A stretch of DNA of 42,705 nt, from the NCBI GenBank assembly GCA_024761205.1, contig JAMASS010000039.1, positions 178 to 42,882 of the forward strand, given 5' to 3'. The position numbers and the translations under genes were made by a program. This document shows positions 2,030 to 27,968 of the stretch, piece after piece; the first letter of the stretch is position 1, and each line of letters starts with the position of its first letter. The notes below the pieces were generated by a model. That model worked only from the letters and a program-made list of their open reading frames with translations, ran no database searches and was not told where the DNA came from. Origin of the DNA: Limisphaerales bacterium. GTDB lineage: Bacteria; Verrucomicrobiota; Verrucomicrobiia; Limisphaerales; AAA164-E04.

Positions 2030-3721
2030 CTACTGCCGTCGCCCCCGAAACCGCTCCAGTTTGGCTTCCACATCGATCCACTCCGATTCCCGGAGAACAC
2101 GCAACCGAACGACCTCACCCACACGGCGACTGCTGAGCGCCACAAGATACTCCCAGTCATCCTCAACCACAAACTCATCCACTTGCCGGATAATATCGCC
2201 TCTCTTCAGCGGAGAGTCCTCTCGCTCCACTCGGACCACCCGCACGCCAGGATTGGCGTCCACCGTGCGAACCCCCAGCCCACCCCGGCGGCCGCGCATC
2301 CGATTTGGCGGGATCACCACCCCTTCCTTCATGGGCTTCCAGTGCCTCAAAAACGCCTTAATCGGCGCGTGGTAATTTTGGTCCAAGCGCCCACCGATGC
2401 GACTGTGAATACCAATCAATTCACCGCGCATATTAAAAAGCGCACTTCCGGAATCGCCGCCAATAATGCAACAATCCGAACGCATCAGATTATCCTTCTG
2501 CAAGATGATTCGACCGATTCGCGCCACCACGCCCCGATCATCATCCAAACCGCCGGGATGTCCCAACGCAAAACACCACTCCCCAACTCGCGTTTGATCC
2601 ATGCCCGCCAGCGGCACATAAGGAAACGGTCCCTCACCGTCAATCTTAACCATGGCGGCGTCAGCAAACCGGAAAGCCCCAAGACTCCTAGCATCATGAT
2701 TCGATCCATCGGCCAAGCGGATCCGAATGTCCCGACCCGTCCCGCTGACATGTGCAGCCGTTAGCACGTAACCATCGGGAGACACGAGCACCCCACCACC
2801 ATTACCACCGTTCACCACCACGATAGCCTTTTCCACCGAAGCGATCGCGCTCTGCAACCGATCCTCCATAGCTAGCAAGTCCTCAAGTCCCGTTGGCGTC
2901 GCGTTGACCCGCTCCTCCCGATCTTCCAGCCACTCCAATTCGACCAAAACCGGACGGTGATCCGATATGATGAGGTCATCGACAACGTCTACCTCCACCA
3001 CGCGCCAAGCATCGCGACAACGGATCAATATATAGTCGATCATCGACTGAGGAGCCACGGCATCGATCCAGTCGTCTGCCAACAAGGTCTGTATAGGAAC
3101 AGAGCTCGGACGCGCATTGAGGTCACCTGCGAGAATCACCGGCACATCCTCATCTCCACCAAAAACTTGACGAATCTGTTGCACCTGCTGCGTTCGAGTC
3201 GATTCACTCTGATGGCACAAATGGGTCCCCAGAAAATCAAAACTCGGTAAGCCGTTATCTGGGACAATCCGCGCCGCCAACACGATTCGCGGTTCCTGTC
3301 CGAATTCAAAAGGCAAGGGATGATTCCTTGAGTGTTCAATGGGAAACCGAGACAAGACCGCCTCGCCATATTCCCCTCCGTCGTAAGGCATAGCCGCGCC
3401 GAAAACGAAATTCATCTCGCAAAGCGCCGCTAAGCGTGCCGCCTGATCGACCCCGTTGACTCGCCCCGTTTTCCGGTCCACCTCCTGCAGGGCCACCACG
3501 TCAGGATTCAACCCGTTAATCATGCCGGCAAGCCGTTCGTAGTCGAACTTCCCATCGGTTCCCTCTCCGTGGTGAATATTGTAAGTCAAAACGCGGAGCC
3601 GCTCGGCATCGGCACTCACCGCACAGAGAACCGACAGGCTGATGGCGAGGCCCCACAAAAAGGATACTATTCGCCGTTCATCCCACGCGATCTTTCCCCC
3701 AGATTGAATCAATGTCCTCAT
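2030..3721 (-). CDS. Exported endonuclease/exonuclease/phosphatase-trypsin-PDZ fusion
   Basis: This 563-residue protein has three enzyme-type modules. A signal peptide (about 18-39) is followed by an EEP-fold hydrolase at 41-263 with its hallmark residues: YNIHH (Asn48), LQEVD (Glu80), THL (His167), AGDLNARP (Asp200, Asn202) and SDHRP (253-257). A short charged helical linker precedes a trypsin-like protease (about 290-460). Its triad looks intact: TAAHV (His324), FADAAMVKI (Asp354) and GGDSGSALF (Ser424). A PDZ domain follows at about 478-555. EEP enzymes cleave nucleic acids, phospholipids or inositol phosphates, and the substrate cannot be told from the sequence. The gene begins 21 bases after the CehA pseudogene and is followed directly by the dead protease-like gene. 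The junction is clean and in frame, so this is a real fusion in this sequence. I know of no standard family with this architecture. Confidence 0.85.
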   Translation of the reverse strand: MRTLIQSGGKIAWDERRIVSFLWGLAISLSVLCAVSADAERLRVLTYNIHHGEGTDGKFDYERLAGMINGLNPDVVALQEVDRKTGRVNGVDQAARLAALCEMNFVFGAAMPYDGGEYGEAVLSRFPIEHSRNHPLPFEFGQEPRIVLAARIVPDNGLPSFDFLGTHLCHQSESTRTQQVQQIRQVFGGDEDVPVILAGDLNARPSSVPIQTLLADDWIDAVAPQSMIDYILIRCRDAWRVVEVDVVDDLIISDHRPVLVELEWLEDREERVNATPTGLEDLLAMEDRLQSAIASVEKAIVVVNGGNGGGVLVSPDGYVLTAAHVSGTGRDIRIRLADGSNHDARSLGAFRFADAAMVKIDGEGPFPYVPLAGMDQTRVGEWCFALGHPGGLDDDRGVVARIGRIILQKDNLMRSDCCIIGGDSGSALFNMRGELIGIHSRIGGRLDQNYHAPIKAFLRHWKPMKEGVVIPPNRMRGRRGGLGVRTVDANPGVRVVRVEREDSPLKRGDIIRQVDEFVVEDDWEYLVALSSRRVGEVVRLRVLRESEWIDVEAKLERFRGRRQ

Positions 3722-3742
3722 CTTTTCACTGCCAAATCAAAA

Positions 3743-4911
3743 CTAGCGCGTCTCAACCAACTTCGCCTGATAAAACTCCAGCGCATCTCGATATTCACCA
3801 ATTACCTCGGCTGACAATACACCCCCGTGCCGCCGCAGTTCATTGGCCACGCGCTCAATCAAATACTTGACCTCAACCCACCTCGGTCGAATCGGACGCC
3901 TGTCCACCCAAATATGAAACGGTGCAGCATGCGCAAAACGCAATCGGCGATCTTCAGTCCAAGTAACGCACCGAACCGCCGTCCCACCGCTTGGCATAAG
4001 GTCAAAACCACAGTTGAGCAACGCGCAATAATTGCTGAATCCCCAATAAATCCAAGCCTCCTCCGTGTAACCGCGACTCGTGAGCTCCAGGTCCAAATAG
4101 CCCGAGAGATACTCCGGATACCCATCTCCATACCGAAACTTCATCCGCCAAACGTGATTATTCGTCAGCTCATATACATCCATGTCCACCCCCGGCAGCA
4201 ACATCATGGACCAAGGCCAGTTGTGCTTGTCAAGACCCGGCACCAAGCCCTGTCGCCGCACCGCTTGGATCACTGCGCAAACCGGATGCGCCTCCAAATC
4301 AATCAGTTCGCGATAAATCAAATCACCTCCACCCGGCACGGATACTGTCCGTGAACTTCGAACCGACGTCTCGGCGTACTCGGCAACCCAAAAAGCCAGT
4401 GGCAAGACCACGTTTAAATCTTCCGCCAAAACAGGGTTCAGCAAATCCACAACCGACCGATGGACGTGAGTATCGCCGGAATGCCACCCCACCCCTGTGA
4501 CGCCATATCGGGCCACTGCTCCGAGGACACCGTAACATCTCGGTTGATCCCCCCCTCATATTAACCTCGCACATAGACGGCAAATATTCCTTCCATCGCT
4601 CGACCGTCAACCGATATCTGCCAACCGGAAGGCCCAGCTCAACCGGATGCGCCGAAATCATCGTGTGCACCTCCTGACTCGCACCTCGCCGTCGATCACA
4701 AACAACCGCCGAACCCAAAAAAACTCCCGGATTTTACGGTGAAGAGTTCACCCTCGCTGTTCTCCAAATAAATTCAGGCCGGGAGTATTTGCTCTGACTG
4801 AGCATTGACAACCCGGCCAACCATCTGTCCGGCATTTAGGTACGATCCATTCGCCGCTGTCGCCAACAGAATTGTCAGCCACCACCATCGTTTGGAAAGA
4901 ATCCGAATCAT
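3743..4911 (-). pseudogene. CehA/McbA-type metallohydrolase, frameshifted
   Basis: The first start is the ATG at 4911, giving a signal peptide (RILSKRWWWLTILLATAANG) and then GRVVNAQSEQILPA before a stop. The coding sense continues in other frames: IYLENSEGE near 4765, then AHPVELGLPVGRYRLTVE near 4640 and EYLPSMCEVNMRG near 4565. The last 257 codons (4516 to 3743) are open and contain GWHSGDTHVHR, the HxH metal-binding signature of PHP-type CehA/McbA hydrolases. At least two frame changes (near 4774 and 4520-4560) break the gene. It lies 10 bases after the GGT pseudogene and 21 bases before the EEP-trypsin fusion, as in an operon. The C-terminal half looks recently intact, so the decay may be young. 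Confidence 0.75.
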
Positions 4912-4921
4912 AACACAAGGC

Positions 4922-6362
4922 CTAGCACCCGATTGCACAACCCACCTTCCGAGGCCCGGCTCCCCAAGAATACCGCAACAGCTCTTCCATACGCCAGATA
5001 CTCTGATACCCACCAAAGGCACTCACACCCGACTTCACTTGATGCCCCATCGCAACCAATGGTTCGCGGACTTCTCCCGAAATCCCCGCTTTCAACTGCA
5101 CCAACGCCCGGCCCGTAGAACGGCTTCCCGTTGGTATGGAACTCTCCGAATGGGACACTCGGGGTTGACCGCCTGCCTGTTGCGGCGGCATCCCAAAATC
5201 GGTCATGGTCATCACAAAACCTGCGAATGTCTCTGAGGTTGAAATACTCCCATCACTCCAAACGACATCACCGGTCACCCGTTCTTCGTCAAAAATCCGG
5301 GAATGACTGTACAAAACGGTCGCTTGTGCGGTTCCAACTTATTGATATCCTCGGGGTTGAATGAGAAGAGCTGATCGCGATTCTCCATCGCAACACCCAG
5401 CCCATCTGGCACATACCGGGAGACCCAGCCATGATAAAGCTCTTGAATGAAGGAAACCATATTCCCCTCTCCCTCCGCAGATGTCAGGCAAACTATGTCC
5501 GAATTTCCGGTCAGCCGCCCCGTGGCAACCTTTTGCACCGCCTTCTTGGGGCCCGCTCCTTCCCACATTCCTTCGAAATCAACCACTTCACCGGCACATC
5601 GGCAAAGTTCATAACAACATAATAAACTGCTCGATATTCAAAGGCCAACTTCTTGGCCTCAATGAAGAGATGGAGATGCCTCGCGGATTCGGCGTCAACC
5701 ATCTGATGTCGAAATGCTCGAGCATGTTCAAAATCTACAAGGCCGCGATACCCTGGCCATTCGGCGGGAGTTCCCACACATCAAAGCCACGATAATTGGC
5801 GCTCATCATTCGGCGATCCTCCCCCCCTCGCAGAAAGATCGCCATCTGTCCCTAGTCAAGCTCTCAAAAAAATCCGCGCATCCCGGGTTCTTGGAGATAT
5901 CCCCAAATCCTAAAAACTCCCCACCTCGCAGATAGGTATCGGTAATGTGGGATGCGTGGCACTCGGTGTCTTCAGCCAAACGCGAGGACAATCTGAGAAA
6001 TTGGAAAACTCGCATGCGCATAATAATATCGCCTCGGCCAGCAATTCCTGTCGCTTGAGTTTGCCATAGCGTTGTGACAAGGTACCCTTTCTTCCCAACC
6101 CGACACGCTCCAAGACAGCGGCGAGTGGAGACCGATCTTCTCAGCCTCCTCGAGACTCCAATGATACGACGAACAACCACTGGCATTGAGACCGTAAAGG
6201 GATTGGCTGACCCCTCATCCCGACCGATCACAAACAAGTCGCCACCAGGGCCATTGCTCATCGGTTCCACAACGTTCAAGACGGCGTTGGCAGCAATTAC
6301 CGCATCCACCACACTCCCTCCCTTCTTCAACACCTCGAAGACGGCCTGTCTCGCTAAGGGTT
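4922..6362 (-). pseudogene. Gamma-glutamyltransferase, heavily frameshifted
   Basis: Recognisable in order on the minus strand are KKGGSVVDAVIAANAVLNVV and EPMSNGPGGDLFVIGRD (6340-6220), then a scrambled middle. SAEGEGNMVSFIQELYHG and NPEDINKLEPHKRPF follow (about 5510-5310), and the C-terminal MTDFGMPPQQAGGQPR and ending PRKVGCAIGC (about 5200-4923). These are signature stretches of gamma-glutamyltranspeptidase, which hydrolyses or transfers gamma-glutamyl groups of glutathione. Many frame changes separate them. The nucleophile position, normally Thr in a DT-x-YL context, reads DIVCL here, consistent with loss of function. The gene heads the operon-like run that continues with the CehA pseudogene. 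The N-terminal export signal is missing. Confidence 0.8.
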
Positions 6363-10036: not shown

Positions 10037-10399
10037 TCCCCACCTTGCAGATCATCCTGGACTGTGCCCGCCTGCTGCTTTGCCCCAGCGCAGACTGCTG
10101 CGCCCCGAGGGAGAGGGACTAGATTCAAACTGTGAAATACACCGAATACACGGATTTAAACAACCAACCCGCCGCATTCCGTCTTCCGTATTTAAACATC
10201 TGCCCGAATAAGTTTCCGGAAACTTAGGCTGCGCTAGGTTCTGTTTTCTGCTTTGGGTTGCCTCTGCATTGGTGGCATTTCGAGATTTAACTCAAAGCCG
10301 AAAACATCGCCGCCCAAGAATAGACCTCGGCCAACCAGAACCACAGCCACCGCTTGAAGACTCGGCGCGTCCGGTGTTCAGGCAATGCTCTCCCCGAAA
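10037..10399. other. Gene-free stretch after the permease gene
   Basis: About 360 bases downstream of the permease stop. No protein family, RNA fold or terminator with a T tract can be recognised. Confidence 0.4.
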
Positions 10400-10720
10400 C
10401 CGGTTCACCCCTTGATGACCGGAGGGTTCACCCCTGGATCCGCCAGCTTAACCAAGCCGGGGTCGGTGGCTTGATTTCCCCGCCCGGACGCCTCGCAAAG
10501 CGAAGCGGCGGTGCGCCGCCGGGCTCTTCCGTGTCTCCTGGACGAACTTGGTGGCGGGAGGGGAAGGCGCCGATTCAAGCCTCCCTCGACTGCCACCCTC
10601 CCCGTCGGAGGGTAACCTGATCGAAAGGGCTGGCGTCGGCTCAAGGCCGGCGGGTTCCAAGATGACATCACCCGCTCCCCGCAGGAAGTGACGGATCGCC
10701 TCGGCTAGCGCTTCGGCCAT
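10400..10720. other. GC-rich block with strong hairpin
   Basis: This stretch is clearly richer in G and C than its neighbours. It contains a perfect 6-base-pair hairpin CGGCGG-TGCG-CCGCCG (10506-10521) and further C/G runs. A 90-codon minus frame (10720-10448, starting AEALAEAIRHFL) spans it, but its composition is low in complexity and I recognise no family. I looked for RNase P, tmRNA and SRP RNA signatures and saw none. It may be decayed coding DNA or a structured non-coding element. Confidence 0.35.
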
Positions 10721-10739
10721 TTGTGAACGCCTCCCGACA

Positions 10740-11444
10740 AACCGCCTTCATCCACGCTTTCCCAAAATGATTTTTCGGCAGATAGTAATATCAAGTTCAC
10801 CTCTTTGTTTCCCCGAGTATCTGACGTCATTTCCGTCTTTGCATCACAGACCAGCCTAGTCCAATAAGCCCGAAGTCTCAGATATTCCCGTAGCTGATCT
10901 GAGTGCCGCAATGGGACAGGGCCTCGATCGTTTGAAAAACCACCCTCGGGCATACCACCACGGCAGTTCTTCTCGGATCATCGGATGTCGGCAAATCGAC
11001 GCTGACCAACGCCCTACTAGAACGAGAGCAAAGGCGGATCAAGAAGGCCATCCCGGAAGACGACAGCAGAGGATGCCATACGCCCTTCAACAGCCAGATG
11101 CTTCGTATCCCAGATCATGGCTGGCTCATTGACTCGTTGGGTTTGCGGAAAGTACAGCCGTGGGAGCGATTGAAGGCGTCGAACCGGCCTTCTCGGAAAT
11201 CGAGATACTCGCTCAGCAATGTCTTCTGGGATTGTCACCAGGATCAGGAACAAGGCTGCGCCGTGTTAAAAGCACTGGATCAATGATTCCTTCCGGAGCG
11301 GTTCCTAGACAACTACCACCGGCTATGCGCAAGCAACCTACCAGAATCAACAAGTCGATCAGCAGTCTGGCCACAGAGGAACGTCATGACAAACCCCTCG
11401 CAAAGAAAGTTCGACGCATCATCAAGGAGAAAGGAGGACGGTAG
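10740..11444 (+). pseudogene. rsgA: Ribosome small-subunit GTPase RsgA, broken
   Basis: RsgA is a circularly permuted GTPase that helps 30S ribosome maturation. Pieces in the right order but different frames are AMGQGLDRL (about 10910), the P-loop LLGSSDVGKSTLTNA (about 10970), and MLRIPDHGWLIDSLGLRK (about 11098). FSEIEILAQQC (about 11190), the zinc-binding region with CHQDQEQGCAVLKAL (about 11235-11280) and a tail ending HDKPLAKKVRRIIKEKGGR follow. The switch DTPG reads DSLG. At least four frame changes are needed to read through, and the N-terminal OB domain is not recognisable. It is convergent with the glycerol genes. A functional rsgA elsewhere is possible. Confidence 0.75.
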
Positions 11445-14322: not shown

Positions 14323-16581
14323 TTAAAACACCCAAGGACGCGCCTGCTTGATCGCTAAATGGCTGTCGCGGGTCACCTTGAATTCGATTTCCATGGCAAA
14401 CCGATCCTCCGGGGTTTTCCCGTAGAGGTCTCGGAATTCGCGATGAATTTTTTGCAAGCAATCACTCAATTCCTGCAAGTGCTCATCGTTGAGGATTTGA
14501 GCCCCGTCAGCGGTTTTGTTTGATGATCGCATCACTTTCGTATCCGCAGCATCCCACCAACTGATTAGCAACTCCTCTGGAACGGAGGCCACTTCCGGAT
14601 TGGTCACGAGATCTTCACCGACCTGAACGTTCACATAATAGTTCCCGTAGGTTTGATAAAGAATGTCATCCGTCACAGCGACGCCGTTGGCCCGCTCGCC
14701 CTGATAATTTGGATGCACCAAAACCCCCATGGCCGACGCAAAGTGATTGATGCGATAGAACTCACGTTCCTCAAAAGTCCTAAAATTCCACAGGCTCGCA
14801 AACACCTGCTTGATCGACTTGGCCAGATGACCTTCATGTGGATGGTGCGTATAGGAACTATAAAGACCGGCACCACTGAATCCCGGAAGATCCTCGTTGT
14901 TGGTGCTTGATCGCACGCGAATCGGAGTACCTTCAGGAAACGAACGCTGCAGCTCCCCAAGAACCACCATCATCCAGGCCGGCATCTCGCCTTCGCACAC
15001 CGCCTTGCGAAACTTCTTCAATCCCTTGATTCGGGCCTCCCGATCGTTTTTAAAATCCGACCGAGCCAATAGAGCCGCGGCTTTGGCGTAAAGCTGGTTG
15101 TGCTTCATAAATCCATCATAGAAGGCAAACGGAACGGCAAATCCATCGGGTACGGTAAACGCATCAAACTCGAATCGACGCATCGTCGCTAGGTTCGCCG
15201 CCTTGACACCGACTGACTTCGCATCGTCAAATCCAATCTCGGCGAACGAACGAATTCTCTTCACGGACAAATCCCGTTGCGGCGTTTGCGGTTCAGTTGG
15301 CCGAATACCGGCAAAGTGCGCTTCGACCTCCGCAGCACTGGCTTCACGGATTTCGTATCCATCAGACGTGACCTTGTAGAAGATGTTTTTGCCGACCAGC
15401 AATTGGACCGCGGCATTCTTTGAACCGTCGGCCAAGAAAGCATTGGGAATTTTATCTTGCACCGCCCGCAGGTTCACGTGAGACAACGGGGTTTGTCGTG
15501 CCCCGGTGATGATTCCCGCAACCCGAGGCATTTCATTGGGCAAGGTGTCATAAATCACGACATCTCTCGGATTGGGCCGCTCGTCCAGCCTCATAACTCT
15601 GAGGCGACCGAACGATTCACCAACGTTCAGCGGAAGAAAGGCAATCTTACCAAATAAATCTTCGTCGAGATAGACCGGCAGATCACCCGCTTCGTACAGC
15701 GATTTCTCTTCCCGGTAACGCGACATGGCACCGGGCATCGGATAGTAGCCCAACTTCCCCTTCAAAAGGGGCATCTTTTCCACCAACATCCCATAAGCAA
15801 ACTTGACTTGGGCATACGGAAACGAATCGTTCGGCTCAAACTCGTAGGTATACAAGCCGGTGCTTCCATTCGGTGCCTTGGTTAGCGGGCGATAAACAAG
15901 CACGCCACGCATCTGCCCGCTGTCGCCTCGGCCGAAACCCCGCATAGATATTCCCACTGCGCGCATGAACATCATATGGGCTCGATGGGTTATGGTATTG
16001 ATAAAATACAACTTGGGATCATCAGACCCCACGCCTTCAATCTGGAACTTCACAAACTCCTGACTGTCGAGATGCCGATCAATCAACACCTCAGACCCTT
16101 GGTAGGCCAACTTCTTGAAGGTGGCTCGATCCGGAATCACGGCAACGCCATCCCCAAACTTCACCTCTTCCGGGTCCTGTTGTTCCACCGCTTCCCCACC
16201 CACTTGACCGAATCCAAAGCCGCCCCGCCCCCGGAAGTTTAGCCGCGTCTCCTCGCTCGAGATCATCCCGTCGTTGTTTTTGTCTACGAACCGGAGGGCT
16301 GAGGAAGCCCCCGCAATCTCCGCCCGGGAAAGCTCGCCATCCTTATCCCGGTCGATAGCAGCAAATAAAGGATCCATCCGAAGGAAGTTGCCAAACCCGC
16401 CCCTACTACGTCCAAACCCTCCGAACCCGCCAAAGCTGCTGTCCCCGACGCCCGGATCACCAGGCCGCCCGGGCGGCGGACCACTCATGGCTGGCTGAGA
16501 TTGGATGTTGGTTCCCCAGTAAAATAAACTATTGCCGAGCAACAACGCTATCAACCCCAGCTTTTTCGATGTGCTTCTCAT
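14323..16581 (-). CDS. Exported EF-hand protein with PEP synthase/dikinase-like domains
   Basis: This is an intact 752-residue protein. An N-terminal hydrophobic signal (about 8-28) is followed by a Gly/Pro-rich linker. Two EF-hand calcium loops follow: DRDKDGELSRAE (77-88) and DKNNDGMISSEE (100-111). A 350-residue middle region comes next. It carries a PEP-utilising swivel-like motif, TPLSHVN (364-370), whose His368 is placed like the phospho-histidine of dikinases. The C-terminal part is a PPDK/PEP-synthase N-terminal ATP-grasp: SVGVKAANLATM (456-467), IRVRSSTNNEDLPGFSGAG (554-572) and the final KQARPW. The swivel before ATP-grasp order is reversed relative to PEP synthase, resembling water-dikinase-like PVC proteins. 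An ATP-using dikinase that carries an export signal and calcium loops is unexpected, and its substrate is unknown. Confidence 0.8.
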   Translation of the reverse strand: MRSTSKKLGLIALLLGNSLFYWGTNIQSQPAMSGPPPGRPGDPGVGDSSFGGFGGFGRSRGGFGNFLRMDPLFAAIDRDKDGELSRAEIAGASSALRFVDKNNDGMISSEETRLNFRGRGGFGFGQVGGEAVEQQDPEEVKFGDGVAVIPDRATFKKLAYQGSEVLIDRHLDSQEFVKFQIEGVGSDDPKLYFINTITHRAHMMFMRAVGISMRGFGRGDSGQMRGVLVYRPLTKAPNGSTGLYTYEFEPNDSFPYAQVKFAYGMLVEKMPLLKGKLGYYPMPGAMSRYREEKSLYEAGDLPVYLDEDLFGKIAFLPLNVGESFGRLRVMRLDERPNPRDVVIYDTLPNEMPRVAGIITGARQTPLSHVNLRAVQDKIPNAFLADGSKNAAVQLLVGKNIFYKVTSDGYEIREASAAEVEAHFAGIRPTEPQTPQRDLSVKRIRSFAEIGFDDAKSVGVKAANLATMRRFEFDAFTVPDGFAVPFAFYDGFMKHNQLYAKAAALLARSDFKNDREARIKGLKKFRKAVCEGEMPAWMMVVLGELQRSFPEGTPIRVRSSTNNEDLPGFSGAGLYSSYTHHPHEGHLAKSIKQVFASLWNFRTFEEREFYRINHFASAMGVLVHPNYQGERANGVAVTDDILYQTYGNYYVNVQVGEDLVTNPEVASVPEELLISWWDAADTKVMRSSNKTADGAQILNDEHLQELSDCLQKIHREFRDLYGKTPEDRFAMEIEFKVTRDSHLAIKQARPWVF

Positions 16582-17011: not shown

Positions 17012-18299
17012 ATGACAGAAACTTCAAGAACCGCCCGGAATCGAACCTTTCTTAAAACAAGCCTTCTCACCATGATGATGATCATTGGCGGGCAAGCACT
17101 TGCCCAAGAGCAAGCCGAGGAGAAAAAGTCCGCCTGGAACTTCCTGCCCGATGCGGTAAAGGAAGGCAAGATCAACGTCAACAGTCTCCTCCGTTGGGAG
17201 TGGGCGGACCAAGAGTCGTTTGGAGGCGATCCGGCCCCAAAGGAATCGAACGCCTTCACCATTCGGAATCGAGTAGGCTTCACCACGGGGAGCCTCTACA
17301 ACTTCAAATCCATGATCGAGTTCGAAGACGTAACGATCATCGGAAACGAAAACAACTACAACCAAGCCGGCATCAACCCGGCGGTGCTGGCCGCACCGTC
17401 ATCGCTGATCCGGAAACGACCGAAATCAACCGAGCTTGGTTGGCCTACGAAAACTGGGACACCGTCGCTAAGTTTGGACGCCAACGTATCACCCTTGATG
17501 GCGCTCGATTTATCGGGGATGTCATCTGGCGGCAAAATCAACAAACTTACGACGGCGTCACCGTGGTCAATACGAGACTCGCAGACATCAGCCTCCTCTA
17601 CAGCTACATCTCAAACGTGAATCAGGTCCTCGGCGACGAGCATCCCGCGGGCGACTTTGACTCGGACTCGCACATCATCAACGGCTCCTATAGCGGCTGG
17701 AAGGCAGGCACACTCACTGGTTATAATACCTACCTCCTCGATCTGAACGATTCGCCAGCCAACTCAAGTGCTACTTACGGGGGAAGCTTTGTCGGCAGCA
17801 CGCCTCTGAGCGACACAGTCGCTGCAACCTATCACGCGGAGTACGCCTACCAAACAGACAATGGCAACAACCCACTGAACTACGATGCGAACTATTACCA
17901 CTTCTCCCTTGGCGCGAAGCACAAGAAGTTCGACTACGGTGTCGGCTACGAGGTCCTGGGTTCGGACGGCGGCGCAAAAGGCTTCGCAACACCATTGGCC
18001 ACACTCCACAAATTCAACGGCTGGGCCGACGCCTTTCTCGCCACACCGGCCGATGGTTTGGATGATCTTTACGCCTGGGTTGCGTTGTTTTGCCCGGAAG
18101 TATTCCCTTGAAATTCTTCTATCATGATTTTTCGGCAGAAGACGGCGGTGTTAACTATGGTCACGAATTCGACCTCGTTGCCTCCAAGAAACTCAGCAAG
18201 AACTTTACTCTCCTGACCAACTACGGCCACTACGAAGAAGGAGATGACGGTCTAGCCGGCCGGACCCGTTTCTGGCTGCAGCTTGCGTTCAACTACTAA
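17012..18299 (+). pseudogene. Outer-membrane porin, alginate-export-like, two frameshifts
   Basis: Joining three frames gives a near full-length beta-barrel protein of about 425 residues. The first (17012 to about 17395) carries a signal peptide ending GQALAQ, then KEGKINVNSLLRWEWAD and FKSMIEFEDVTIIGNENNY. The second (about 17400-18075) includes TEINRAWLAYENWDTVAKFG, TYDGVTVVNTRLADISLLYS and FNGWADAFLATPADGLDDLY. The third (about 18090-18299) ends SKNFTLLTNYGHYEE and TRFWLQLAFNY, with the C-terminal aromatic residue usual in outer-membrane barrels. Similarity is to alginate-export/anion-porin-like families. Only two indels, near 17395 and 18080, break it. It is either a very young pseudogene or two local sequence errors. 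A palindromic element follows the stop. Confidence 0.7.
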
Positions 18300-25649: not shown

Positions 25650-25758
25650 GGGGAAAGCGGTGAAAAATCATCACCCTCCAAAACCTAGTGGCAACAACCG
25701 AGGCCATCAAACCACGTGAAAGCATCCTAGAAAGCGGTGATCCTTCACCGCTTTCCCC
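25650..25758. repeat. Composite palindromic intergenic element
   Basis: GGGGAAAGCGGTGAA (25650-25664) and TTCACCGCTTTCCCC (25744-25758) are perfect 15-base inverted repeats. The right arm is part of a perfect hairpin, AAAGCGGTGA-TCCT-TCACCGCTTT (25731-25754), lying directly beyond the kinase stop codon. The left part continues into AAAAATCATCACCCTCC, which recurs at 12281. The hairpin may end kinase transcription, although no T run follows. The core recurs at 30957-30988. Confidence 0.75.
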
Positions 25759-27968
25759 TACCCAGCCACTCGAGTGCGCTCACCCAGATTGATTTGCAAA
25801 GTCGGCTCAAGAATCGTCGAAGACTTCGGAGCGCCAGCCTTCGGCCGCTCACCCTGCCGTGCCCGGAAAGCCACCCACCAATCCTCCCGCTCCTTGGACG
25901 TCCATTTTCCATGGGCCGATGACTGATGCAGCGCCGCCACCATAGCTCGAGCTGAGGCAGGCCGGTTCACCGGCTTCTTTTCCAAACACTGGAGGATCAA
26001 ATTCTCCAAAGTCGGATCGACGGACGTGCCCAAACGCTCACGCGGCGGTTCCGGCGTCTTCGAAGCATGCTCCTGCATCACCTCGAACGCCGACTCCCCA
26101 TCAAATACGTGCCCCCCGGTAAGAAGATAATAAGCCAACAACCCTACGGCGTAGAGATCGCTTCGCTGATCCACCCGATCCGGTCGAGACACGGCCTCCG
26201 GCGCGATAAACTGCGGCGTGCCGGCAATAGTAAAGGCATGGGTCGCCTCAGTCGAAGTCGCTTTATCATCGCAACAAGATTTCACTAAACCGAAATCCAG
26301 CACCTTCACCATGTCCGCTAGGCCACCTCGATCACAGACAATAATATTCGCCGGTTTGATATCCCGATGCACCAGACCCGTCTCATGAGCCTCGCTCAAT
26401 GACGCACAAATCTGCTCCAGGATATGAATGACCCGGCCTTCCTGCAGCCGACCCTCAAGCTGAATGAGCTCTCGCAGATTGATGCCATCGAGAAACTCCA
26501 TGGCATAGTAAAATATCCCGTCCGGCGTATGGCCATAGTCGAAGATTTGAATCGTGTTAGGATGCACCAACCGGCAGGTCAACTGCACCTCGCGCTCGAA
26601 ACGCCGAATGGACATGGCATCCGCCTTTTCCGGCAACAAAAGTTTGACCGCCGTATCACGTCGCAGCAGGGCATGCCGCGCCCGGTAAACCGCTCCCATC
26701 CCGCCTTCACCGATTTTCTTTTCCAAAGTGTACTGTCCCAACTCCTTGGCCTCTAAAGCGACATCTTCCATCTGCCGACGCAACATAACGTTGAAATACG
26801 AAAACAGAAACAAACCGACCCCGCACAGCACCGAAAGGAGCAGCAAAATCAGAAAAACCAGCCGCAACACCCGCAGCGGCTGAAAAGCCTCAGCCGCGTC
26901 CAATTTTGTCGCCACACCAAACCGATACTTTGGCAACCAACGCCAAGCCCCCACCACGGGAACACCGCGATAGTCCCGAAAGCCTTTGACGTCGATCCCA
27001 TTACCTCCCGCAACAGCATCCTGAACCAGCTTCGTTAACGGCCAAGATTCGTGGGGCGTCCTCGGCTCATAGCCCCCGACCAAATTCCCCCCCGGATCCC
27101 GCAACTCCAAATTCAAAGCGGAACTGCCCCTCGGTCCGCTGTCATTGATCAACCCCAAACCTTGGAGCATTCCCTCAAACCGACTCTGCGAAAGCATGAC
27201 CCCGTTCTGATCAAACGCGAATGTCTCACCCGTCTCTCCGGAACGAGCCACCGACAAAATCCGGGTGAACTCCCGCTCCGGCTGAATCATCAGACCAATG
27301 GCCGCAGCCACACTTCCATCCGTCCCCCGAATCGGCGCCGCCACGGCCATAATTGTCCGATTCCTCCGTCGCCCGCCACGACGACCGGGACCGCCGCCAA
27401 ACCTCGGATCCTCTCCCGGACCAAAACCGCCTTTCACTCCAGCCCGCATTTGCCTCGGATCGGGACGCGGCGGTTTGTAGGGGGTTAAAAGAACGGACTC
27501 TTCAGTATCAAAGATATACCGAAACGTTTCCAATGCTTCATCGTGCAACTGATCCCCAAGCATACCGTGAAACGGCGCTGAGATAATGATCCCCTCCGGA
27601 TCAATAATCACGAAACCCAACCGCATGGCTTGAAGCCGCGGCCCAACATAATCCTGAAGCACCTGAACTTCCTCATATTCTCGCAGCGCCTCGGCGGCCG
27701 CTCCATCCTTTGACACGCGATCAACGACTGCCAAAGCCAACGACTGTATCTTCTCCTCCGATGCCAAGCTATCCACGAAGCGCAACTGATTGTCGATCCA
27801 GATGTTGAGAGCAGTCACATTGGCCGTGATCATGGATTGCAACTCATTGCTCAATTGCTGCTCGATCGCCCGCCGGACTTCAGAGTTGCACCACCACCCG
27901 GTCAACGCCACGGACACCGCCACCCCCACCGGGATCAACCAAACCTTCTCTCGCCAGCTAAATCTCAT
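25758..27968 (-). CDS. Transmembrane Ser/Thr protein kinase with extracellular Cache-like sensor
   Basis: This is an intact 736-residue receptor kinase. Membrane helix 1 lies at about 9-26 and an extracellular sensor at 27-365. The sensor has a double-Cache look (an N-terminal long helix, then LGFVIIDPEGIIISAPFHG and ETFAFDQNGVMLSQSRFEG) and an unusual Gly/Arg/Pro-rich insertion (about 165-203). Helix 2 lies at about 366-393. The Hanks-type kinase has the Gly-loop IGEGGMGAVY (419-428), Lys442, HRDIKPAN (534-541), DFG (558-560) and APE (589-591), so it should be active. A 60-residue tail includes several Ser/Thr. It would sense a small ligand outside and phosphorylate cytoplasmic targets. It is followed by the ThuA-cytochrome gene, a possible functional partner. 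Confidence 0.9.
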   Translation of the reverse strand: MRFSWREKVWLIPVGVAVSVALTGWWCNSEVRRAIEQQLSNELQSMITANVTALNIWIDNQLRFVDSLASEEKIQSLALAVVDRVSKDGAAAEALREYEEVQVLQDYVGPRLQAMRLGFVIIDPEGIIISAPFHGMLGDQLHDEALETFRYIFDTEESVLLTPYKPPRPDPRQMRAGVKGGFGPGEDPRFGGGPGRRGGRRRNRTIMAVAAPIRGTDGSVAAAIGLMIQPEREFTRILSVARSGETGETFAFDQNGVMLSQSRFEGMLQGLGLINDSGPRGSSALNLELRDPGGNLVGGYEPRTPHESWPLTKLVQDAVAGGNGIDVKGFRDYRGVPVVGAWRWLPKYRFGVATKLDAAEAFQPLRVLRLVFLILLLLSVLCGVGLFLFSYFNVMLRRQMEDVALEAKELGQYTLEKKIGEGGMGAVYRARHALLRRDTAVKLLLPEKADAMSIRRFEREVQLTCRLVHPNTIQIFDYGHTPDGIFYYAMEFLDGINLRELIQLEGRLQEGRVIHILEQICASLSEAHETGLVHRDIKPANIIVCDRGGLADMVKVLDFGLVKSCCDDKATSTEATHAFTIAGTPQFIAPEAVSRPDRVDQRSDLYAVGLLAYYLLTGGHVFDGESAFEVMQEHASKTPEPPRERLGTSVDPTLENLILQCLEKKPVNRPASARAMVAALHQSSAHGKWTSKEREDWWVAFRARQGERPKAGAPKSSTILEPTLQINLGERTRVAG

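Follow-up and report, generated by a model that had tools for sequence, protein, structure and literature searches.

How a phosphotransferase that leaves the cytoplasm would obtain its phosphate, and on what it would act, is the question raised by one gene in a 42,705-nucleotide stretch of DNA from a Limisphaerales bacterium (hereafter the window); phosphorylation beyond the cytoplasmic membrane is poorly understood in bacteria, ATP being scarce there. The original prediction placed a signal sequence, two EF-hands, a phospho-histidine-like motif and a PEP-synthase-type ATP-grasp in a single product, and this observation proved real. The open reading frame of 752 aa started with ATG and contained no internal stops; reading frame, Pfam matches and structure agreed on one intact chain with an exported-type N-terminus, EF-hands, a phospho-histidine swivel domain and a complete ATP-grasp (Table 1). 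Chance was ruled out by 80 further loci with close homologues and by the invariance of the catalytic residues in 37 aligned sequences.

Table 1. Features of the gene and its product, with positions in the window.
Feature	Position	Strand	Evidence
Whole gene, 752 aa	14323..16581	(-)	Intact ORF; PPDK_N and EF-hand above Pfam cut-off
Signal-like N-terminus, residues 1-30 (KK, then hydrophobic stretch)	16492..16581	(-)	Sequence; hydropathy scan of the family
EF-hand pair, residues 70-113 (loops 77-88 = 16318-16353; 100-111 = 16249-16284)	16243..16374	(-)	Pfam EF-hand_5
Middle domain, residues 137-311, invariant H202 and K178	15649..16173	(-)	No Pfam match; confident model; invariant columns
Phospho-histidine swivel domain, residues 312-414, H368 in QTPLSHVN (15472-15495)	15340..15648	(-)	Structural alignment to 5fbu; H368 conservation
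PPDK_N-type ATP-grasp, residues 439-752 (K460, R557, S576, E731, E733, Q746, R748)	14326..15267	(-)	5hv1/2ols alignments; conservation

Three other genes of the window were recorded in passing. An exported porin-like frame at 17012-18111 (+) is split into overlapping frames at 17012-17620 and 17194-18111, probably by a frameshift, as a pseudogene or through an assembly error. The product of 2030-3721 (-) combines an endonuclease/exonuclease/phosphatase domain, a trypsin-like protease and a PDZ domain in one chain, and that of 25758-27968 (-) is a Ser/Thr protein kinase that carries a dCache sensor domain of extracellular type.

The PPDK_N family of Pfam matched residues 455-749 (E 6.2e-30, 105 bits against a cut-off of 27). 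An AlphaFold2 model built with 37 family sequences had a mean pLDDT of 84.4, exceeded 85 for most of residues 137-752 and fell below 50 only at residues 1-3, 20-61, 116-128 and 216-218. Structural alignment of this model superimposed the ATP-grasp on rifampin phosphotransferase (RPH, 5hv1; Z 30.2, rmsd 2.5, 290 residues) and on PEP synthase (2ols; Z 30.1, rmsd 2.2, 287 residues); score and fold together assign the protein to the PPDK_N ATP-grasp superfamily. The next domain towards the N-terminus aligned with residues 754-867 of the RPH swivel domain (5fbu; Z 10.6, rmsd 2.7, 97 aligned). The TPLSHVN motif occupies residues 364-370, and H368 lies within the matched stretch, so that fold and conserved histidine alike identify a phospho-histidine swivel domain. 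NCBIfam models for PEP synthase and related enzymes matched the protein only far under their cut-offs.

All 19 residues tested were identical in 37/37 aligned sequences, namely H368, K460, R555, R557, S558-T560, E563, D564, E656, N661, E731, E733, K745, Q746, R748, H202, N370 and R372. In gap-free stretches of the alignment to RPH, with the 12-residue offset between chain and native numbering counted by hand, K460 corresponded to Lys22, R557 to Arg117 and the invariant S576 to Thr136; the phosphate-positioning Lys22 and Arg117 are thus kept identical, and the Thr136 site is an invariant serine. The RPH study describes Lys22Ala as abolishing activity and mutants of Arg117 and Thr136 as losing the second half-reaction (PMC4844700). 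The ATP-binding and phospho-histidine residues, whose absence would have spoken against the original prediction, are present on both structural and sequence alignment. The window protein is hence predicted to be a catalytically complete His-swivel phosphotransferase of the PEP-synthase/RPH superfamily.

The middle domain, when folded alone, gave a confident model (pLDDT 88.6) and no recognised fold. No Pfam family covered residues 137-350, and no convincing PDB match was obtained (best Foldseek E 0.036; best VIA Z 4.4 over ~90 residues), which does not show that the fold is new. PPK1 was tried as a relative (E 0.10, Z 4.2, rmsd 4.8, 106 aligned) and is not claimed, because these scores lie below the stated noise level of the tool. 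The domain also bears on the idea of small-molecule substrates beyond the membrane, or of a reverse reaction that, as in PPDK, would yield ATP there. Small-molecule dikinases do occur in the same superfamily, RPH and HpeHI among them (PMC4844700, PMC12167813), and bacterial PPDK is described as running towards ATP (PMC5371819), but the window protein has neither a PEP/pyruvate-binding barrel nor a known small-molecule site, and its middle domain is without clear PDB relatives. We consider this idea very unlikely.

The N-terminus of the window protein consists of a K/R-rich start and a hydrophobic segment (LGLIALLLGNSLFYWG). A crude hydropathy scan, in which the start was taken as the best of several candidates and 5/86 homologues were left out as cut or masked, detected such a segment in 79/81 homologues; the two failures were L097, at a contig start, and L111, which was borderline. 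Since the same scan, as a loose control, passed 148/271 other ORFs of >=400 aa, it is supportive and not decisive. In many relatives the segment ends in AxA-Q type sites (AxA-like, for example, in L064, L078 and L087), and the N-terminus was positively charged in 75/81 homologues. Under the positive-inside rule, a positive N-terminus stays in and the chain beyond the segment lies outside. The enzyme would therefore face outwards even with an uncleaved anchor, and the orientation that would have contradicted the original prediction, an anchor holding the enzyme in the cytoplasm, is not the one indicated. Export is accordingly predicted from the segment and its charge across the family, although the window copy shows no clear cleavage site. 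That unclear site, together with anchor-like N-termini in Poribacterial copies, could also mean that the segment does not export every relative, or that the protein is simply a cytoplasmic dikinase tethered to the membrane. With AxA-like ends in so many relatives and the positive charge almost throughout, this is highly improbable.

Both EF-hand loops (DRDKDGELSRAE and DKNNDGMISSEE, in chain order) are canonical, and EF-hand_5 matched two stretches (34.2 bits against a cut-off of 25.9). As a canonical loop was found in only 43/82 homologues with an N-terminal region, the EF-hands are optional, and are best explained as a Ca2+-binding add-on that would serve placement or regulation. The EF-hand N-terminus of one Poribacterial homologue (L044) matched that of a CotH kinase in the same genome (L146) with 45% identity over 74 aa (E 4e-15).

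The scan of genome contigs returned 162 relatives, 80 of which were kept as the loci with close homologues. Relatives occur in Poribacteria, Verrucomicrobia, Planctomycetes, Bryobacterales, Gammaproteobacteria, Chloroflexi, Latescibacteria and Bacteroidetes MAGs; duplicates are kept in the counts (L010 and L101 are apparently the same genome). The homologue is nevertheless rare: at E 1e-100 and with the centres included, it was present in 1/297 genomes in the phylum of G060 and in 7/392 in that of G073, and the close form (>50% identity) in 6/58 relatives of the window genome (G000-G003, G011 and G045). Plasmids gave no match at 1e-20. In L152 (1529-7212), a distant swivel/ATP-grasp homologue of ~1090 aa directly follows a CotH-ankyrin gene. 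ORFs of 750-760 aa beside distant homologues of ~1100 aa were considered as CotH and rejected by Pfam (L153, L154) or BLAST (L168).

The search for homologues and their neighbours led to a recurrent gene cluster. When all ORFs of the loci were clustered, genes for a VTC-domain protein of the polyphosphate-polymerase type and for the membrane protein DUF4956 were found to adjoin the homologue; with profiles built in the analysis, both were same-strand neighbours in 13/114 loci, the window being negative, and G679, from a later Planctomycetota sample, added a 14th. Pfam confirmed the identity of the neighbours in 4/4 proteins scanned and in 2/2 of L156. In all 14 loci the three genes were contiguous on one strand, in three orders: VTC-DUF4956-homologue in nine Bryobacterales/Terriglobia loci, in 8/9 of which the predicted start of the homologue meets the last codon of DUF4956; DUF4956-VTC-homologue in L040 and L064; and homologue-VTC-DUF4956 in L097, L100 and L172. 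These loci belong to Acidobacteria, Planctomycetes and one proteobacterial MAG; L097, titled Proteobacteria, came from the phylum sample of a planctomycete and fell among Planctomycetes on the tree. A hand estimate from ~40 VTC matches, 27 genomes of ~5 Mb and a 6-kb target zone gave ~0.05 adjacencies by chance versus 8 seen. Each of the eight adjacency genomes among the 50 with a homologue had one PF09359 match, and the neighbour of the homologue was the VTC gene. In the literature searched, to which the statement is confined, no paper described an exported PPDK-like protein with VTC or DUF4956, and this context of the homologue is a new result.

The original prediction had named a polysaccharide as a possible substrate, as in glucan water dikinases (GWD). 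The product would then be a bacterial equivalent of plant GWD, an exported glycan dikinase acting on extracellular or periplasmic polysaccharide. Its swivel domain precedes the ATP-grasp as in GWD and PWD, and GWD1_pHisD was the best Pfam match in the swivel region (residues 354-418, E 0.0044), recurring in L156 (E 0.0066), but its 17 bits fall short of the cut-off of 27. In streptococci and clostridia, genes for CotH, poly-phosphate polymerase and DUF4956 are described as adjoining pel exopolysaccharide clusters (PMC7112168). On the other side, Pfam matched the window protein to no carbohydrate-binding family, and no polysaccharide locus was shared among the ten neighbour clusters inspected by eye; most clusters apart from VTC/DUF4956 were limited to a single lineage, for example Poribacteria. 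A polysaccharide substrate is for these reasons fairly unlikely, and the gene context points instead to a role parallel to that of CotH.

This parallel emerged from the distribution of CotH. Among the matches listed, 27 of 50 genomes with a homologue contained VTC, 44 DUF4956 and 38 CotH, and 23/50 had no PF09359 match; per-genome numbers of CotH matches are lower bounds. Within the 27 VTC-bearing genomes, and among the matches listed, the homologue adjoined VTC in 7/7 genomes without CotH versus 1/20 with it (L064), a difference with a Fisher p of 9e-6 that ignores relatedness. Five further genomes with the adjacency likewise lacked CotH (5/5), giving 12 VTC-bearing, CotH-less genomes, all with adjacency; in this further set the VTC count covers the adjacency genomes. 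G679 had one weak CotH match (E 7.7e-7). On a tree of 69 homologues, adjacency required 5 changes and CotH loss 6, and 9/14 adjacency loci are Bryobacterales/Terriglobia. After phylogenetic correction, 3-4 contrasts agreed and 0 opposed (p 0.125-0.25), so the association is suggestive of displacement of CotH and does not prove it. A tree of VTC, inspected for partner switching, had long branches and few CotH labels and was uninterpretable.

The window genome shows the other occupant of the same slot. Its copy of the homologue is not near VTC; elsewhere it carries CotH (at least 13 matches) and two VTC-DUF4956 pairs, and in region C43 the order is DUF4956-VTC-CotH, matching DUF4956-VTC-homologue in L040 and L064. 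In its 58 relatives, VTC and DUF4956 were found in the same 46 genomes, and 46/46 had CotH. Across the VTC-DUF4956 regions examined, the pair often stood without CotH next to it: CotH was the neighbour in 7/20 wider regions (C43 included) and in 1/30 short ones. Two Poribacterial CotH genes with an EF-hand N-terminus directly adjoin DUF4956, and the Poribacterial genomes searched gave no VTC by PF09359. Like the position of the window copy and the often missing CotH neighbour, other combinations speak against a replacement of CotH: G011 has the homologue and at least 27 CotH matches without VTC or DUF4956; G103-G107, among the matches listed, have it without CotH or VTC; and G461 has it without CotH or an adjacent VTC. 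In L173-L176, VTC-DUF4956 pairs are followed by a short protein, LTD-like by eye, that resembles the N-terminal part of the L151 CotH protein and is perhaps a CotH remnant.

CotH phosphorylates spore-coat proteins. The window protein could by the same parallel be a protein kinase in effect, acting on basic or Ser-rich secreted proteins. A candidate acceptor occurs in one Verrucomicrobial clade, where the gene next downstream encodes a secreted EF-hand protein with RRERPSGAAGEQ-type repeats: this gene follows on the same strand after 62-64 bp in L036, L037 and L090, and L006 has a related one. These EF-hand proteins with basic, Ser-containing repeats are encoded at 4980-5516 (L036), 10132-10752 (L037), 3228-3887 (L090) and 3620-4282 (L006). 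An EF-hand ORF within 3 kb was present, however, in only 6/87 loci (the window and L001 being the same gene), 4 of them in one clade. Protein acceptors of this kind are thus a possibility, if a fairly unlikely one.

The explanation we favour, and hold to be slightly on the probable side, is that the window protein is an exported ATP-dependent His-swivel phosphotransferase that does a job like that of exported CotH kinases on a surface or matrix macromolecule, its family taking the place of CotH beside VTC-DUF4956 in several lineages. By analogy with the superfamily, ATP would be cleaved in the ATP-grasp, H368 would carry the phosphate, and the swivel domain would deliver it to an acceptor at the middle domain, whose fold is unrecognised. 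The signal-like N-terminus suggests that the reaction takes place outside the cytoplasmic membrane; the CotH parallel and the gene context suggest the macromolecular acceptor class, and the latter also that in several lineages the family partners the VTC-DUF4956 membrane module where CotH is otherwise found. Both the substrate and the route by which the donor arrives are inferred.

The question of the donor, asked by the original prediction, was a good one, and the VTC and DUF4956 neighbours in relatives provide a testable lead. ATP might leak out or be exported, or polyphosphate made by VTC might stand in for it. One scheme would make the two a membrane donor supply: VTC would form polyphosphate (or triphosphate) from cytoplasmic ATP, DUF4956 would pass it across, and CotH and His-swivel kinases, as two interchangeable folds, would spend it on surface macromolecules. 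We regard this scheme as speculative and unlikely as it stands. A second exported kinase family, unrelated to CotH and replacing it beside VTC-DUF4956, would open the donor question to direct tests and would provide DUF4956, seldom mentioned in the literature searched, with its first functional frame.

Compared with known systems, the window protein shares with RPH the ATP-grasp and swivel folds and the equivalents of Lys22 and Arg117. RPH has the ATP-grasp first and the His domain last, whereas the swivel comes first here; the window protein lacks the RIF-binding domain, has a signal-like part and EF-hands at the N-terminus, and scores 60.6 against 999 bits for the RPH equivalog. With PEP synthase and PPDK (2ols, 1dik) it shares the ATP-grasp (Z 30.1 and 22.8) and, presumably, the phospho-histidine chemistry. 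Unlike in these enzymes, the swivel precedes the ATP-grasp and the chain ends after it, without a C-terminal PEP/pyruvate barrel; PEP synthase equivalogs scored 85.1 against 598 bits (NF005057) and 72.7 against 739.75 (TIGR01418). The canonical histidine motif is GGxT[S/C]HAA with a regulatory Thr (PMC12167813), whereas QTPLSHVN keeps the histidine and preceding Ser and has Leu at the Thr position. HpeHI (9goj) is an ATP-grasp relative (Z 23.6), but a two-component dikinase of separate polypeptides in phenolics catabolism (PMC12167813).

The domain order called reversed in the original prediction is so relative to PEP synthase and RPH. Plant GWD and PWD have the swivel domain and then the ATP-grasp, so the order itself is not new, although its setting is. 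The likeness to these plant enzymes extends to the weak GWD1_pHisD match; the window protein differs in being bacterial and predicted to be exported, and no starch-binding module was found in it. It belongs to another Pfam family than CotH: PF08757 gave no match in the window protein, and the CotH fold is unrelated and protein-kinase-like. With the systems of CotH, VTC and DUF4956 the family shares the arrangement of an exported-type kinase beside VTC-DUF4956. That slot is filled by the homologue in 14 loci, the window copy standing elsewhere, and a similar EF-hand N-terminus occurs on Poribacterial CotH kinases.
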